DNA from: Fidelibacterota bacterium
GTDB taxonomy: Bacteria; Fidelibacterota; UBA8477
Assembly (NCBI GenBank): GCA_021734045.1
Contig: JAIPJR010000011.1
Coordinates: 1-42,114, forward strand
Direction: 5' to 3'
DNA length: 42,114 nucleotides
This document shows positions 23,730 through 31,095 of the stretch, piece after piece. The notes under the pieces were generated by a model. The model saw only the letters and a program-made list of their open reading frames with translations. It was not told the DNA's origin and searched no databases. Both the position numbers and the translations under genes were made by a program. How positions within the stretch are numbered: position 1 is the first letter of the stretch; the number at the start of each line of letters is the position of its first letter.

Positions 23730-24664
23730 GAACGTCGCTCCACAACCCGAAGTTTGGCACTGCGCGCCCGTGGATTTTGAGCAACCTCTTCCTCGTCAGG
23801 CACAACAGGTTTCCGGGTGATGATGTCAATTCGACCGGGAACTGTATTTTGGTAAGGTTGAATTTCAGGCGGAGCTGGCTGTAGAGACTGAGATTGGAAA
23901 TAGCGTTTTACAATCCGGTCTTCCAGTGAATGATAGGAGATGACCGCCAGTCGGCCACCGGGGACCAGCAGGTCCACAGCTTTTTCCAGACCTGTTTTTA
24001 ATGCTTCAAATTCGTGATTGACTTCAATGCGAATCGCCTGGAACACGCGGGATAAGGCTTTTACCAGGTACTTGTAAGGCGTTAATTCTGCAACAATGGC
24101 GCGCAGGTCAGCGGTGGTTTTGAAAGATGTGGACTCTCTGCGCAGAACGATTGCCCTGGCCATTTTACGCGCTGCTTTTTCCTCCCCGTACTCGAAGAGA
24201 ATTTTACCCAGTGCTTTTTCACTATAGTCATTTAGTACACGTGCTGCTGTGAGGGGCTGGCTTTGGTCAAAACGCATGTCCAGAGGACCGTTTCGGTCGA
24301 AGGAAAAACCCCGCTCGGCATCTTCCAGCGTTGCTGAGTTCAACCCCAAATCGTATAGAATTCCGTTTACCTGTTGAATACCCATTGCCCTCAAAGCCTG
24401 ATCCAGATTTTCGAAATTGGCATGCACCAGATGAAGTGATTGTGCAATACCCGATTGATCAAATGTCTCCAGCAGGGAAGCGTCCTGGTCAATCCCTACC
24501 AGCGTCGCACCCTCATCGAGTGCGTTTGCTAAGGCCTGGGTATGACCACCCTTCCCGAATGTGCCGTCCACATAAATGCCCGTTTTTGATGTCACCAGGG
24601 AGGAAACCACAGCGTTCAGGAGAACGGGCGTGTGGTTGCCGGACGCTGGTGATTGAGCAATCAC
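23726..24664 (-). CDS. rsmH: 16S rRNA m4C1402 methyltransferase RsmH (MraW)
   Basis: A 312-residue SAM-dependent enzyme that N4-methylates C1402 in the ribosomal decoding site. It begins HTPVLLNAVV and has the SAM-binding YVDGTFGKGGHT, LGIDQD-like VGIDQDASLL, GILYDLGLNSATLEDAERGFSF and the C-terminal ISYHSLEDRIVKRYF. The start is a GTG at 24664 forming a GTGA overlap with the mraZ stop. No ATG is available nearby. Confidence 0.96.
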   Translation of the reverse strand: MIAQSPASGNHTPVLLNAVVSSLVTSKTGIYVDGTFGKGGHTQALANALDEGATLVGIDQDASLLETFDQSGIAQSLHLVHANFENLDQALRAMGIQQVNGILYDLGLNSATLEDAERGFSFDRNGPLDMRFDQSQPLTAARVLNDYSEKALGKILFEYGEEKAARKMARAIVLRRESTSFKTTADLRAIVAELTPYKYLVKALSRVFQAIRIEVNHEFEALKTGLEKAVDLLVPGGRLAVISYHSLEDRIVKRYFQSQSLQPAPPEIQPYQNTVPGRIDIITRKPVVPDEEEVAQNPRARSAKLRVVERRS

Positions 24665-25122
24665 GGTCGGCGCAATTCATCCGCCAGATTTTCAAAATCT
24701 TCCTGGTCGAGTTTGAAATCGGTCTGCTCATGCTGCTTCAGCAGCTCCGGATCCCAAATTTCGATTTCAGAGTTGAGGCCGATGATGGTCACATCTCGTT
24801 TAATTTTTGCGTACTCTAAGAGGTTCTGCGGAATGGCGATTCGCCCCTGCGAATCAAATTTGCAGTAGGAAGCCCAGCGGGTAAGACTACGAATAAAGTT
24901 GCGATGCAGCGGGTTAATCGTCGAGAGTTTGTTTAATCCCAGTTGGATTTTTTTCCACTCGTCCAGCGGGAATGCCACGATGTTCTCCGTTTGCCCACGA
25001 GTCAGCACAACCGTCTCCTCACTGGATTCCGGCAGTGCCTTTCGCAGCGGGGCTGGCAGGTTAACCCGCCCCTTAGCGTCTATGGAGTAGTGATACTCCC
25101 CGGTGAACGATAGATATGTCAT
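24661..25122 (-). CDS. mraZ: Transcriptional regulator MraZ
   Basis: 153 residues with two AbrB-like SpoVT-MraZ domains: FTGEYHYSIDAKGRVNLPAPLR at the N-terminus and the second copy CKFDSQGRIAIPQNLLEYA at about 80-100. MraZ forms a ring-shaped oligomer that binds direct repeats of TGGGN spaced by five bases and represses its own operon. I chose the ATG at 25122, preceded by AAGGGG, over a GTG at 25152, because the usual family start lies just before FxGEY and the GTG falls inside an operator box. It is the first gene of the dcw operon. Confidence 0.96.
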   Translation of the reverse strand: MTYLSFTGEYHYSIDAKGRVNLPAPLRKALPESSEETVVLTRGQTENIVAFPLDEWKKIQLGLNKLSTINPLHRNFIRSLTRWASYCKFDSQGRIAIPQNLLEYAKIKRDVTIIGLNSEIEIWDPELLKQHEQTDFKLDQEDFENLADELRRP

Positions 25123-25146
25123 CAGCCCCTTGTTTGTGGGAAATCG

Positions 25147-25181
25147 CCCCACTTTTCCCCAATTTTACACACTATTCCCCA
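25147..25181 (-). promoter_or_regulatory. MraZ operator array 1
   Basis: Read on the mraZ strand, four five-base boxes follow each other at exact 10-bp steps: TGGGG (25181-25177), TGTGT (25171-25167), TGGGG (25161-25157) and TGGGG (25151-25147), each separated by five bases. This matches the known MraZ recognition pattern of TGGGN repeats with 5-nt spacers. The second box is degenerate. The array ends 24 bases before the chosen mraZ start codon and spans the candidate -10 element. Confidence 0.85.
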
Positions 25182-25190
25182 CTAACACAA
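25162..25190 (-). promoter_or_regulatory. Candidate promoter of the dcw operon
   Basis: On the minus strand TTGTGT (25190-25185) and TAAAAT (25167-25162) are separated by exactly 17 bases, a fair sigma-70-like pair. Three of the four MraZ boxes lie within or beside it, so bound MraZ would block RNA polymerase. The predicted transcript would start near 25155, with a leader of about 33 bases. If the organism uses Bacteroidota-type promoters, the true elements could differ. Confidence 0.5.
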
Positions 25191-25210
25191 GAAAAAATTG
25201 TCAGCCTAAG

Positions 25211-25228
25211 GTGTAATTCGTGTTACAC
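25211..25228. promoter_or_regulatory. Dyad GTGTAA-N6-TTACAC upstream of the dcw promoter
   Basis: A perfect inverted repeat GTGTAA (25211-25216) and TTACAC (25223-25228) with a six-base spacer, about 20 bases upstream of the candidate -35. Its size and place fit a dimeric regulator's site. The binding protein is unknown. Confidence 0.4.
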
Positions 25229-25314
25229 ACTCAATGGATTTACCAGGTATAAGACAAGAGATATGTCTATAAAGTATTGTATTTACGGTTCTTGATGCCT
25301 GGCAGGAGTTAGGG

Positions 25315-25339
25315 TGGGATGATGTGGGGAAAATTGGCC
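25315..25339 (+). promoter_or_regulatory. MraZ-like box array 2, opposite orientation
   Basis: On the plus strand TGGGA (25315-25319), TGGGG (25325-25329) and the degenerate TGGCC (25335-25339) are phased at 10 bp with five-base spacers, the same geometry as array 1 but inverted. It lies about 135 bases upstream of array 1, with no gene reading in that direction. Confidence 0.5.
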
Positions 25340-25393
25340 GAATCGGCAATAAGCGCAGCAGAGGTTGTAAGCGTTAAGTTGTCCGGAATATAA

Positions 25394-25419
25394 AACAGGC
25401 CACACTTAAGCGGCCTGTT
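25394..25419 (-). terminator. Intrinsic terminator after rodZ
   Basis: Arms AACAGGCC (25394-25401) and GGCCTGTT (25412-25419) pair perfectly around a 10-base loop. On the minus strand the stem runs into TTTTAT, giving a short T-run, 36 bases after the rodZ stop. It would separate the porU-maf-rodZ transcript from the dcw operon. Confidence 0.7.
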
Positions 25420-25440
25420 CCAATGGTTGAGCGCCCCGGG

Positions 25441-25455
25441 TGGGGAGAAGTGGGT
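25441..25455 (+). promoter_or_regulatory. MraZ-like box pair 3, at the rodZ stop codon
   Basis: On the plus strand TGGGG (25441-25445) and TGGGT (25451-25455) are separated by five bases. The last base of the pair overlaps the rodZ stop codon. The same geometry as arrays 1 and 2, but only two boxes, so chance is harder to exclude on its own. Confidence 0.4.
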
Positions 25456-26258
25456 TATTTCAGCGTATAGGAATAGAGTATGCTCTCCGCACCCCTAACT
25501 TTTAGCTGTGTCCAGGAATTGCCCGGATTAAAGGACTGAAGCGGCTGATCCATAAGCACGAAGGCGGTACTATTGGAGGGGTAGGCGAAAATATCCAGTT
25601 CACTGACGAAGTAATTTTGGTAAACCTGTCCCGAATCAACACGGATGGTATCCGTGGGGAAAGTATCGCGCTTGATATAAATGGTAATCGGTATGCTGGC
25701 GCCAACCTCAACGGCGTTGGAATCGGATAATAAACCGGATAATCCCCAGGAAAGGGAGTCGGATTTTTCAAACAGACTCAAAGAGGGGGGCATTATCATG
25801 GGTGATCCAGGCGCTACCGGCTCAGCGGATGGACGCATAGCCAGTTTGCCAAATACGATAATCAGGATGAGGATTATGGCGGTGATTATAATTTTTTTGG
25901 TAGCCGGTTGATTGGGGTTCGTGAGTAGAATGCGCTGATTGGTGGGACCGGGTTTTGGCTTATCATCGGAAGAGGTCTCGTTTGTTACCCGGGCCGCTTC
26001 TTTGCGAACCTGCGATTCACTACGGCCGGCGAACTGTACCTCATTTTCGTAATTCCGTAAAACTTCCTCCTCAGCCATGCCGATCTCTTTGGCATAGGCT
26101 TTCAGAAAAAGGCGCACATACGTGGTGGGTAGACTACTGAAATCGCCCTCTTCGAATGCTTTGAGTGTATTGATGTTGATTTTTGTACGGTCTGAAATTT
26201 CTTCCAGCGTAATGTTCTGTTTCAGGCGGTAACTTTTCAAATCCTCATGGAAGGCCAC
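25455..26258 (-). CDS. rodZ: RodZ-like membrane protein with HTH domain
   Basis: 267 residues. An N-terminal helix-turn-helix of the HTH_25 type at about 5-70 (LKSYRLKQNITLEEISDRTKI, SLPTTYVRLFLKAYAKEIGM), a Lys/Thr/Pro-rich linker, one transmembrane helix at about 126-145 (IIITAIILILIIVFGKLAM) and a periplasmic DUF4115-like domain at the C-terminus. RodZ links MreB filaments to the elongation machinery. The start is a GTG, supported by AGGAG five bases upstream; there is no nearby ATG. It follows maf by 58 bases and is probably in the same transcript. Confidence 0.85.
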   Translation of the reverse strand: MAFHEDLKSYRLKQNITLEEISDRTKININTLKAFEEGDFSSLPTTYVRLFLKAYAKEIGMAEEEVLRNYENEVQFAGRSESQVRKEAARVTNETSSDDKPKPGPTNQRILLTNPNQPATKKIIITAIILILIIVFGKLAMRPSAEPVAPGSPMIMPPSLSLFEKSDSLSWGLSGLLSDSNAVEVGASIPITIYIKRDTFPTDTIRVDSGQVYQNYFVSELDIFAYPSNSTAFVLMDQPLQSFNPGNSWTQLKVRGAESILYSYTLK

Positions 26259-26316: not shown

Positions 26317-26916
26317 TCAAGCGGAGCTAAGCCGCTCACTCACAATTTTTAATGATCCAACCAAGTGACTTAACGGCAAGCCCACCACATTGTAAAAGCA
26401 TCCGTCAATAGCATCCACAAAAATGGCAGAGTAGTCCTGAATTCCATAACCACCGGCTTTATCGAAGGGACTACCGGTGCTAATATAATACTCAATTTCT
26501 GATGCAGAGATCGCCCGAAAATGGACACGGGTGGTTTGCTGACCTGCGAATTCAAATTGCTGATCTTTCTTAATCATTACATAGGCAGTACTCACTGAAT
26601 GCCAGCAATCGGATAACAAATTCAACATCTCGCGTGCCAGTACATCCGTGGCAGGTTTGCCTAAAATTTGGTCCCCGGCCACCACAACCGTATCAGCCCC
26701 AATCACCAGGTGATCAGGTAGGTCATTGGCAACCTTCCGGGCTTTTATACGCGCCATTTCCAGAGCATAGGTCAGGGGATTCTGGCCGGGAGATGGGGGT
26801 GGTTCCGGAATGCCGGCGGGATGCACGGTAAATTCAAGCCCGATTTTATGCAGCAGTTCAATGCGCCGTGGCGACTGACTGGCCAATGCGATGGGGCAGG
26901 TAAATGCCGGAATCAA
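26317..26916 (-). CDS. maf: Maf-family nucleotide pyrophosphatase (YhdE-like)
   Basis: A 199-residue cytoplasmic house-cleaning enzyme that hydrolyses dTTP, UTP and modified nucleotides to monophosphates. It has ALASQSPRRIELL at the N-terminus, the active-site GADTVVVAGDQILGKP at about 70-85, and FDKAGGYGIQDYSAIFV, which is the pattern of the dTTP/UTP type. The start is a TTG whose TTGA overlaps the stop of the upstream gene; no ATG lies near enough, so translation is probably coupled. Homologues have been linked to septum inhibition, which fits the neighbourhood of division genes. Confidence 0.93.
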   Translation of the reverse strand: MIPAFTCPIALASQSPRRIELLHKIGLEFTVHPAGIPEPPPSPGQNPLTYALEMARIKARKVANDLPDHLVIGADTVVVAGDQILGKPATDVLAREMLNLLSDCWHSVSTAYVMIKKDQQFEFAGQQTTRVHFRAISASEIEYYISTGSPFDKAGGYGIQDYSAIFVDAIDGCFYNVVGLPLSHLVGSLKIVSERLSSA

Positions 26917-29900
26917 CGTGAGATCACCAATTTTTGAATTTCCTGCCGCGGGTCAGCAGCCAGGTCATATTGGGCTTCCACCACATAGAGGTACACACCA
27001 TTCGCCAGTAACTGACCATAGGTGTCGCGACCATCCCAACGTTCCTGATGATAGCCTTTGCCCACATTACCCAGTGAGAGGGTGCGTAACAGCCGTCCCC
27101 CCAGGGAAAAAATCTTAACCTTTACATCCGCGGCATCGGTTAACCGGAACCAGAAAGTGGTTTCTGAGGTCATGGGATTGGGGTAATTATAGATATCCAC
27201 GATTTGGAATTCAGTTGAACTGGTGAAATTGAGGGAGATTTTACTGACATTAGGATTGTTAAAATTATCCCAGGCCTTCACACTCACCGAATGGGTACCC
27301 TCTTCCATGTTTGCCAGCAGGACATCGAAACGCCCCAATTCTGTGCGGTCCACATCGTATTCGAATAATTCGGTTACATCCACCGCATTCACCCAATCCT
27401 CGTCAATGGCCAGGGAAATCCCGTGCCCGGCCACACCCGTCAGGTTGATACCATTTTCGTCGAAAATTTCAATGGTGAGATTATCACTGCCCAAAACCTG
27501 ATGCCCGTTCATAAGCGGTTGACCAAAATAATAGAACTGAATATCCGGTCCAGTTTCGTCGGTGGTGCTGGAATCACTTCCGACGAAACTTAAGGTATCC
27601 ACAAATGCCACACCCGAATGCCCCTCCGAATCCCAATACTGGACATTTAAGATTCCGGTGCGGCCCACATAGCGGATATCCTTCGGAATCGTGAATTCAC
27701 CACTGAAAGCACCGGAAGTCACACTAATTAATCCACGGAAAATACGCTGCCCCGGTAATATGTAGGAGATATCACCCTCATAATACCCTTGGGAGCTATT
27801 GGGTACATATCCGGAATAGTGGCGCGTGACATTCCGCTTTGAGTCGAATGCCGTCACAACTGCCTGGCCGTTGACCGGTGTTCCGGATTGCACATTTCCG
27901 GAAAAAGCCAACTTCCCCAGTGCTCGGGGTTGTGTAGGGGTTACCTGCTGCATTTCACCCTTGTCTCTGGGGCTGGCGAGTTTTAATGCCGGGTCCGTGA
28001 AGAGCACATATTTCTCATCATTCATGGCATTGAAGCTGCCAAATGACTTTCCATACCGAACCGCATCGCCCAGTGTGTTGGACGTGCTCCGATCCCCAAA
28101 TTGAAATAATCCTTCATAGACCGATTTCATCAGGGTGGCATTGGAGAATGACCCAACCTTGCGGGTTGCAGTGAGAATACCAATGCCGCCTTCGTCACGC
28201 ATATTGAGAATTGTTTCCGGTACGCAATTGCTATTGACATCATCGAAATAGCCCCAGTCACAGGTACCGGCAACCCAGAAGGGGAGCTTCATACCCGTGT
28301 CCACCCGGGGTAAATCATTTTGGGTGAATACCCGCTCCTGCGCCCAAACGGTAGGACTACCATGTCCCATGTAGGTGATTATGGCCGCACCGTCATAGAT
28401 TTTTTGCAGCAAATCCTCCCGGGCATCAGGTTTGCGAACATATGCCGACGTGGGATCCTGGACATCCGGGTATTCGGTGAGATAGATTTTTTTGGTGATA
28501 AAAGATGCTGGCAGGCGATTGTATAAATCTTCGCATTGCCCGATATGCATTGTCTCACCTACCGAGGGACGCAAGGGATCATCACCTACCAGTATCGCCG
28601 TGTTGCGCCAGACGCCTGGCTCAGGATTGGTCAAATACGCATCAATTTTATCCACCATGGTGGTGAGAGAAGATAAGTCCCGCGCAGGCAAGCGTCCGAT
28701 TGCCAAATCCGGTGCGCGGTCCCCGGCACCTCCCGCTACATAAACATAAAAGTCATCCGTTGAGCGCGTGGCAATGTCACTGAGGTTACCGCTGCTGGTA
28801 CCGTCCGTCTCCCAGACGGGAACCAAAATCCTGGATTGGCCGGTATAATTTCGATAATCATAGTCAGCATCACCCAAAATGAAAACATAGTGTGGCTGCG
28901 TAGGCCAATTCCAATAGGCGTAACTGATAAAATTCCGAATGGCCACCGGATCCTGTGCTCCCGCGGCAAATTCCTGGTAGATATCTTCCACGTAGGCAAT
29001 TTTCACCGGCAGACGGTCGTCTGGAAGCACGCGATTTTCCCGCAAATCTTTGATGCGCTCTGCTTCCTGGCTGAAAACCTTGGGTGCAATGACGATATAC
29101 TCACCATCAATATCCGGTCGGCGCAATTGATACGCAAAATTTGGCACCGCTGTGATTTCTGCGGTTCGAACATCACTATCACTGAAGCCCAGCAAGTGTA
29201 ATTTCCCGGGACCATTTATCTGAAATTGATTGGACGCAATTTCCAATCGACGGGGGGATGCGGGATCACTCACATCCCAAAAATGGACATTATTGCTCAA
29301 ATTCGTGAAGACAAGCCGGTTCACGCCCGCTTCCAATTGGAGATGGGGCAGGGCAATTTTGCCTGATAGTGGTGCCAGGGGGCGCTCGTAACTCAGGCGC
29401 AATGAATCCAGGTAAATTTCGCTGTTATTGCGATTGGACTGATAATAGATCCGTATTTGGTTCTGACCGTGGTTCAGCACACCGGCGGTAGCTGTTCCAA
29501 AAACATTAAACGGACTGGAGCCGGTGGTACTGTACTGACGGAGCGTGGTTTGATTCGCCACGAGGGAAATGGTGTGATTATCGGAACCCAGACTACTTTC
29601 CAAACTTGGGTAGAAGCGGGCTGAAATGGTTAAGTCACCATTTGTAACCGGATCCCGGGCGTCAAAATTGAGTGTGAGCGTTGTACTGGTTCCCACCAAT
29701 TGTTCACCGAGCCAGGTCAGACCTGACCGTAGCGGGTTTTTCAATTCCCTTTCATGATAAAAAATTTCTTTATAAGTGGTGATAATATTGTCTGCATCGC
29801 CCTCCAGGGATGGAAGTGTTGGAATGTGTTTTCCCACTGCGTTTGGATCGGAAGGAATGAGCAGCCAATAGTAAACTTCATTGAAAAAGGGGTTAGTCAC

Positions 29901-30827
29901 GTAATCCCCTTGCAGGTCTCCATCGGGTCCCTGGGCGAAAAAACGCAATTGATCACCTTCGTTCAGTTCGCCATCGCCGAGTCCGATTCCTTCGTAGCTG
30001 ATTTCAACCAGATTCGGCGGGATGGCGCCGTCGCTCTCCAGATTCTGTGGTAATGACCTGCCCTGGGCGAATGGGGCAAACAGACGCCAATTTTCCGGTG
30101 CAACTTCCGGCAGCGTACCCGATAAAGCAGCCCGGGTAATGGCATAGACACCATTATCACGAATGGGGATTTTATACCAATGACCTTCGGGAAGATTCTC
30201 CGCCGATTTGGGTAATTTTCTTTCCCGGGGAATAATCCATTCTTTTGCCATCTCTCCATTCACAGCCGGAATTTTCACCGGCAGAGCATTAGTTTGGACG
30301 GTGGGTATCTGGCCAAAATCCAATCGCAGGGTGATCGCAGTGATTTGCTGCTCTTGTCGGGTGAGTGGCTGGATGAGTACTGCGCCAAGCCAGCGTTGGC
30401 CGCTGCGACCGGTCCTGATAACCTGCACGCTAACATCGGGATTCAGTGAGCCATCCGCCCGGGCAATTCCGGATAATCCAGCTTCACTTGCTGAAAATTC
30501 GGGGATATTAAAAGATAATGGTGCCACTGATTGCGCCAGAGTTTGGACTGCAGGGAGGCGACCGTCAGGTGGTAAGACAATGGGAATGTTAATGAGTGGT
30601 CGTAAGGTATTTTGGGTGGGGAAATAGGTCCACTCGCCGTCCGGAACGACCGGAAGTTTCAGGGAGCGGTCACCAACCGTGTACACTGCCTCGTTTGCAG
30701 AAACCGGCAGCTTTAATGAAAACACCAAATCGGTTTTTCCGGTAGAAATCTCTTCGACGCGGAAACCAAAAAGATATGTACTGAGAAACAGGAGTGTTAA
30801 AAATCGCATGGAAATGAAAACGCGCAT
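26913..30827 (-). CDS. porU: PorU-like C25 (gingipain-family) peptidase, type IX secretion sortase
   Basis: 1304 residues. After a signal peptide (MRFLTLLFLSTYLFG) comes a long beta-rich N-terminal part, then the C25 caspase-like domain at about 600-960. Its catalytic pair is visible: His822 in YMGHGSPTVWAQE and Cys856 in AGTCDWGYF, 34 residues apart as in gingipains. The C-terminus (YNYPNPMTSETTFWF ... GRLLRTL ... GVYLYVV) is a FlgD/type IX sorting-like Ig domain. PorU removes the sorting domain of type IX cargo and attaches the cargo to lipopolysaccharide at the cell surface. It could instead be a secreted C25 peptidase. I chose the ATG at 30827; a GTG at 30875 has no ribosome binding site, and an ATG at 30809 is also possible. 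Confidence 0.82.
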   Translation of the reverse strand: MRVFISMRFLTLLFLSTYLFGFRVEEISTGKTDLVFSLKLPVSANEAVYTVGDRSLKLPVVPDGEWTYFPTQNTLRPLINIPIVLPPDGRLPAVQTLAQSVAPLSFNIPEFSASEAGLSGIARADGSLNPDVSVQVIRTGRSGQRWLGAVLIQPLTRQEQQITAITLRLDFGQIPTVQTNALPVKIPAVNGEMAKEWIIPRERKLPKSAENLPEGHWYKIPIRDNGVYAITRAALSGTLPEVAPENWRLFAPFAQGRSLPQNLESDGAIPPNLVEISYEGIGLGDGELNEGDQLRFFAQGPDGDLQGDYVTNPFFNEVYYWLLIPSDPNAVGKHIPTLPSLEGDADNIITTYKEIFYHERELKNPLRSGLTWLGEQLVGTSTTLTLNFDARDPVTNGDLTISARFYPSLESSLGSDNHTISLVANQTTLRQYSTTGSSPFNVFGTATAGVLNHGQNQIRIYYQSNRNNSEIYLDSLRLSYERPLAPLSGKIALPHLQLEAGVNRLVFTNLSNNVHFWDVSDPASPRRLEIASNQFQINGPGKLHLLGFSDSDVRTAEITAVPNFAYQLRRPDIDGEYIVIAPKVFSQEAERIKDLRENRVLPDDRLPVKIAYVEDIYQEFAAGAQDPVAIRNFISYAYWNWPTQPHYVFILGDADYDYRNYTGQSRILVPVWETDGTSSGNLSDIATRSTDDFYVYVAGGAGDRAPDLAIGRLPARDLSSLTTMVDKIDAYLTNPEPGVWRNTAILVGDDPLRPSVGETMHIGQCEDLYNRLPASFITKKIYLTEYPDVQDPTSAYVRKPDAREDLLQKIYDGAAIITYMGHGSPTVWAQERVFTQNDLPRVDTGMKLPFWVAGTCDWGYFDDVNSNCVPETILNMRDEGGIGILTATRKVGSFSNATLMKSVYEGLFQFGDRSTSNTLGDAVRYGKSFGSFNAMNDEKYVLFTDPALKLASPRDKGEMQQVTPTQPRALGKLAFSGNVQSGTPVNGQAVVTAFDSKRNVTRHYSGYVPNSSQGYYEGDISYILPGQRIFRGLISVTSGAFSGEFTIPKDIRYVGRTGILNVQYWDSEGHSGVAFVDTLSFVGSDSSTTDETGPDIQFYYFGQPLMNGHQVLGSDNLTIEIFDENGINLTGVAGHGISLAIDEDWVNAVDVTELFEYDVDRTELGRFDVLLANMEEGTHSVSVKAWDNFNNPNVSKISLNFTSSTEFQIVDIYNYPNPMTSETTFWFRLTDAADVKVKIFSLGGRLLRTLSLGNVGKGYHQERWDGRDTYGQLLANGVYLYVVEAQYDLAADPRQEIQKLVISR

Positions 30828-31095
30828 CGGTATATGGTGTTCCTCTGGTTTGTTCTTTGAAAAATTGCGTGGCACGATTTGATGATTGGTGACCTGAATC
30901 GGAATGCTGGTTGTTCATCCCGGATCGCTCCTGCCAACTCGCCTGGTAAGTCCGCTACTAATTTCCGGTTTCCCGATGATATCTTTTCAAACAATCAATT
31001 TTGATGTGGTAGTTAATTTCAAATGTTTTAAATGACAACCCTTTTCATTCCGGTGGTCTAAGACGCGCGACATGGAACTAAAATAAGGTAAAAAC

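Follow-up and report, generated by a model that had tools for sequence, protein, structure and literature searches.

A putative second MraZ operator, remote and inverted, ahead of mraZ in a Fidelibacterota bacterium

The mraZ locus and its proximal operator

The stretch of DNA analysed here (the window; 42,114 nucleotides) carries mraZ in the minus-strand order maf, a rodZ-like gene, mraZ, rsmH (mraW), an ftsL-like gene and then peptidoglycan genes (Table 1). The rodZ-like gene is co-directional with mraZ and separated from it by a gap of 332 bp, counted from the rodZ-like end at 25455 to the mraZ start at 25122. Elsewhere in the window, a 1320-aa protein is encoded on the minus strand at 26913-30875; by inspection it looks like a secreted peptidase of the C25 (gingipain-like) type that carries a sorting domain at its C terminus.

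The MraZ encoded in the window is an ordinary member of the MraZ family. It matched the Pfam MraZ profile (PF02381) in two stretches with 6.8e-30, and sequence comparison also returned MraZ entries of the PDB. The two MraZ/AbrB-like repeats with D-x-x-x-R motifs that define membership of the family are present, D15/R19 and D90/R94 being invariant among 32 sequences. The AlphaFold model (pLDDT 91.5) aligned to MraZ structures with TM values of about 0.8, and the structures matched were MraZ of M. pneumoniae and M. genitalium, including cryoEM entries on promoter DNA. Identity to MraZ of the closest named relatives, the Candidatus Neomarinimicrobiota genomes Tobar14m-G39 and CG1_02_48_14, amounted to 99% and 84%, respectively, and a search of viral_contigs with the window MraZ found no relative.

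Table 1. Coordinates of genes and sequence features around the rodZ-mraZ gap
Feature	Position	Strand	Description
mraZ CDS	24661..25122	-	ATG at 25122-25120; heads the dcw cluster
Inverted box closing the proximal operator	25137..25141	+	TGGGA (TCCCA on the mraZ strand), in 10-bp phase
Array 1, predicted proximal MraZ operator	25147..25181	-	TGGGG 25181-25177, TGTGT 25171-25167, TGGGG 25161-25157, TGGGG 25151-25147; interleaved with the mraZ core promoter; conserved phylum-wide
Inferred -10	25162..25167	-	TAAAAT; alignment of phylum promoters
Inferred -35	25190-25185	-	TTGTGT; alignment of phylum promoters (phylum consensus TTGACA)
Array 2, TGGGA-N5-TGGGG	25315..25329	+	TGGGA 25315-25319, TGGGG 25325-25329, further TGGCC 25335-25339; in the genus, only a GGGG core near 25326-25333 is conserved
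rodZ terminator-like hairpin	25394..25420	-	located between arrays 2 and 3; retained in the genus despite sequence change
Array 3, remote inverted MraZ-type pair TGGGG-N5-TGGGT	25441..25455	+	TGGGG 25441-25445, TGGGT 25451-25455; ca. 300 bp upstream of array 1; one-base overlap with the rodZ stop codon
rodZ-like gene (HTH_25 protein)	25455..26258	-	Pfam HTH_25, 4.3e-16; upstream of mraZ

Three arrays of MraZ-type boxes had been noticed in a preliminary description of this DNA, and re-reading of the sequence confirmed all of their strings and coordinates. A consensus promoter scan did not list the -10 and -35 elements of mraZ, and their assignment rests on comparison with the promoters of the phylum. 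In the promoter so defined, -35 and -10 flank the distal box of array 1, the direct pair begins just past -10, and an inverted box, overlooked in the preliminary description, follows.

Across the phylum, 105 mraZ upstream regions were aligned on their last TGGG. Relative to this anchor at position 0, TGGG was found at -10 in 71 regions and at -30/-31 in 60. In 92 regions +11 was occupied by an inverted CCC[A/T], a motif nearly absent from the adjacent offsets. The count of 92 is slightly inflated because the choice of anchor favoured loci matching well at that slot; even so, it exceeds the counts at other offsets by a very large margin. Among the 82 loci outside the order of the window, 69 carried NCCC[A/T] at the slot of the inverted box. 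The full grammar TGGGN6TGGGN7CCCW occurred once in the genome to which the window belongs, at the mraZ operator; a wider MraZ regulon sharing this grammar was therefore rejected. In array 1 as in the phylum alignment, TGGGN boxes follow one another every 10 bp across the mraZ promoter, the pattern of an MraZ operator; array 1 is thus predicted to be the usual MraZ operator of this promoter.

In the E. coli mraZ promoter, MraZ boxes have been described as TGGGN direct repeats with 10-bp spacing (Eraso et al. 2014, cited in PMC8475190 and PMC5138195). The K-12 promoter contains TGGGA, TGGGG and TGGGA together with AGGGG, all direct, and shares with the window the direct repeats at this spacing just upstream of mraZ. 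In contrast, the inverted last-slot box and the remote pairs are features of the window and not of K-12: the K-12 cra-mraZ gap holds no TGGG or CCCA pair further up and no inverted box at the last slot. PMC8475190 reports autorepression by MraZ in both E. coli and M. genitalium. The site of the Mollicutes consists of direct repeats AAAGTG[T/G], which in M. genitalium occur only at the mraZ promoter; a remote inverted set, as present in the window, is not reported there (PMC8475190). Complexes of Mycoplasma genitalium MraZ with promoter DNA have been solved (PDB 9r4j, and 9sz7 titled '4 box promoter'); they share with the window the MraZ fold and, by entry title, a promoter of repeated boxes.

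Remote boxes in the rodZ-mraZ gap

The preliminary description had proposed that the gap holds MraZ-type boxes with a remote inverted set. Such a set exists. Lack of conservation of arrays 2 and 3 in relatives had been named beforehand as refuting the proposal; array 3 is conserved, both of its boxes being kept in three of three members of the genus, although the most distant member has a different spacer between them. Array 2 fared differently: its second box and TGGCC are lost in both genus relatives, which leaves two of its three slots unconserved and the claim of a multi-box array unsupported. What is left is one CCCC box, contained in the block TTTTCCCC, which is invariant in the alignment of all three members. 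The surrounding DNA has diverged, with identity between genus members G000 and G001 decreasing from 89% in mraZ and 76% in the 3' part of rodZ to 53% in the inner gap. Despite this scrambled gap, the array 3 pair, TTTTCCCC, the rodZ hairpin and the promoter persist in the three species. The hairpin was not listed by a consensus terminator scan. Array 3 lies 303, 303 and 311 bp away from the proximal operator in the three genus members, and these distances are not clearly in phase. A divergent promoter at array 2 was considered and rejected, as no -35/-10 pair spaced like that of the proximal operator could be made out by eye and array 2 lacks conservation.

The frequency of the pattern was also evaluated. 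TGGG-N6-TGGG occurs 9 times in the window, where 3.0 occurrences are expected and no shuffle reached 9; the earlier estimate of about one chance pair was thus too low. In the genome of 2.54 Mb it is found 128 times, compared to 93 for the reversed control pattern. Single pairs are therefore common, but three within 309 bp are still unusual, as had been stated. This clustering was borne out by the remote regions of the three genus members (711 bp together), which contain 4 inverted pairs versus 0.03 expected, a number reached in 0 of 2000 shuffles.

Recurrence in the sister family and in Bacteroidota

In the sister family, the rodZ-mraZ gap holds an element of a different form from the inverted pair of the genus, namely a palindrome, [A/T]GGGN-N5-ACCC[A/C], present in 19 of the 19 species examined of genus g3. 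Counted in the strict TGGG/CCCA form, the family has 14 phased convergent pairs versus 0.07 expected, and inverted pairs at 11 bp number 7 versus 0.22 expected; as the species are related, these counts are not fully independent. Measured from the centre of the palindrome, the last direct TGGG is 218 bp away in 14 species, 219 bp in two and 216 bp in one, and hence 216-219 bp in 17 of 19. Two species are outliers: one has 212 bp, off by roughly half a turn, and the other 356 bp, which exceeds 218 bp by 138 bp, or 13.1 turns.

The 139-bp inner spacer of genus g3 shows an ungapped identity of 22-79% with a median of 35%, close to random, and the palindrome lies anywhere from 26 to 107 bp away from the rodZ stop. 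Since the length of the spacer is kept while its letters are lost, this looks like a constraint on spacing. The perfect letters of the palindrome are partly circular because a pattern search found it; the fixed distance is not. The sole genome of the other genus of the family (L008) has a single CCCCA at that place, without a palindrome. Neither a small protein nor a known structured RNA accounts for the 218-bp interval, as no open frame is common to the species and eight loci gave no Rfam match. A second, weakly conserved AT-rich block (TAT..T.TTGTt.t..at....TTAt) was observed about 70-95 bp downstream of the palindrome in L016 and other loci of the family. It is possibly a bend site or a second promoter; a role as loop apex was rejected, the block being off the midpoint of the spacer.

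Remote pairs also recur in two classes of Bacteroidota. In the class of G239, which we take to be Rhodothermia- or Balneolia-like, an inverted 10-bp pair lies at -380 to -140 in 9 of 57 loci versus 0.37 expected. The class of G199, whose locus L182 is titled Ignavibacteriae, yielded 6 direct pairs versus 0.18 expected and 3 inverted pairs versus 0.38. Its direct TGGG pairs stand 220-280 bp upstream of mraZ besides the proximal array, with 10-bp spacing in L276, L280 and L326 and 11-bp spacing in L275, L279 and L321. Further upstream, between -1200 and -600, no significant excess was detected in the Bacteroidota classes. For remote distances of 113 to 201 bp in Bacteroidota, a clustering at whole helical turns is only suggestive (class of G239, p 0.066 for an assumed helical repeat of 10.5 bp and 0.003 for 11.0). 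In the sampled loci with remote arrays, translations showed upstream genes other than rodZ, with peptidase-like and CTP-synthase-like proteins among their products by reading. Sensing of rodZ transcription, as had been suggested for the arrays, is therefore not needed, and it found no support in the window either, where the terminator-like hairpin intervenes between arrays 3 and 2. The rest of Marinimicrobia, with mostly short intergenic regions, has 0 remote pairs in 83 loci and does without the site, which is thus not essential.

A predicted auxiliary operator and alternative readings

Taken as a whole, the sequence comparison favours, with a probability of roughly 0.6, the reading that array 3 and the one remaining box of array 2 form a remote auxiliary MraZ operator, bridged to array 1 by DNA looping. 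MraZ would act as an autorepressor on array 1, across the -35, -10 and start region of the mraZ promoter; as the proximal operator overlies the core promoter, occlusion is the simple reading. A ring-shaped MraZ oligomer would most likely sit on both sites and bridge them, the DNA between being held as a loop, and this loop would strengthen the repression of mraZ and the dcw genes or raise its cooperativity. We infer MraZ as the bound protein, its repression at this locus and the loop contact from the arrangement of the boxes: an oligomer touching both sites is the most economical reading because the half-boxes and their phase are the same and the distance is set in the sister family. The looping or ring complex put forward in the preliminary description, or another distance-dependent contact, is indeed favoured by this near-constant spacing. 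One may speculate that the inverted orientation speaks against continued wrapping round one ring and for another loop geometry or two rings.

Auxiliary operators with DNA looping are familiar from lac and gal, where dimeric or tetrameric repressors bind palindromic sites. The likeness is that the promoter operator is accompanied by another one, which shares its half-sites and keeps a constrained distance to it. Shared half-sites at a remote position are seen in array 3 and in the sister-family palindrome; the constrained distance is seen in the sister family, and the genus of the window contributes three members. Unlike in lac and gal, the predicted regulator here is a ring oligomer on phased half-boxes, and the loop is a proposed one.

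If the remote boxes bind MraZ, they might still act locally without a loop, either as a roadblock to rodZ read-through or as a reservoir titrating MraZ. That array 3 begins at the rodZ stop codon would suit a roadblock, and the absence of the remote site in the rest of the phylum, with its mostly short intergenic regions, agrees with local action. However, local action needs no set distance, yet 17 of 19 sister species keep one across a scrambled spacer; moreover, the sampled Bacteroidota loci have genes other than rodZ upstream, and in the window the terminator-like hairpin follows downstream of array 3. We consider this explanation unlikely. It is less probable again that the palindrome and array 3 serve another regulator with a GGG/CCC half-site, such as a dimeric factor, that sets mraZ transcription from upstream. 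Dimeric factors usually bind palindromes, and the AT-rich block in the sister-family spacer could be counted in favour of this reading, but the remote elements have the half-site and the 10-bp phase of the proximal operator, in which the TGGGN-N5-NCCC[A/T] unit itself occurs, and the half-site is constant while the form varies by lineage between inverted pairs, palindromes and direct pairs.

Chance occurrence of a common 8-base pattern would fit its abundance in the genome and the poor conservation of array 2. As an account of both arrays it is very improbable, given that array 3 is retained throughout the genus, that inverted pairs exceed expectation there and convergent pairs in the sister family, and that two other classes are enriched. 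Conservation disfavours chance for array 3; array 2 as a multi-box site may be due to chance. Finally, a parallel G-quadruplex has been reported downstream of the Staphylococcus aureus mraZ promoter, and G-quadruplex formation has been proposed there (PMC11796246). Carried over to the G-rich repeats of the window, the idea is scarcely credible, as array 3 has only two G-runs on one strand, the sister palindrome one per strand and array 1 three runs with long loops, and it explains neither the 10-bp phase nor the inverted boxes.

Extended beyond the window, the looping reading would have an MraZ ring bridge the promoter operator and an inverted remote operator that lineages of Marinimicrobia and Bacteroidota repeatedly acquired or retained; for this wider statement we put the odds somewhat below even. 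If it is true, MraZ would be a looping repressor upstream of the dcw cluster and not a purely local one. The gene cluster that MraZ heads is among the most conserved in bacteria. The remote operator and the inverted box bear on why MraZ forms a large ring and pose the concrete question of whether this ring holds two DNA segments at once. Widening the operator grammar past direct repeats also helps to locate MraZ sites in other genomes.
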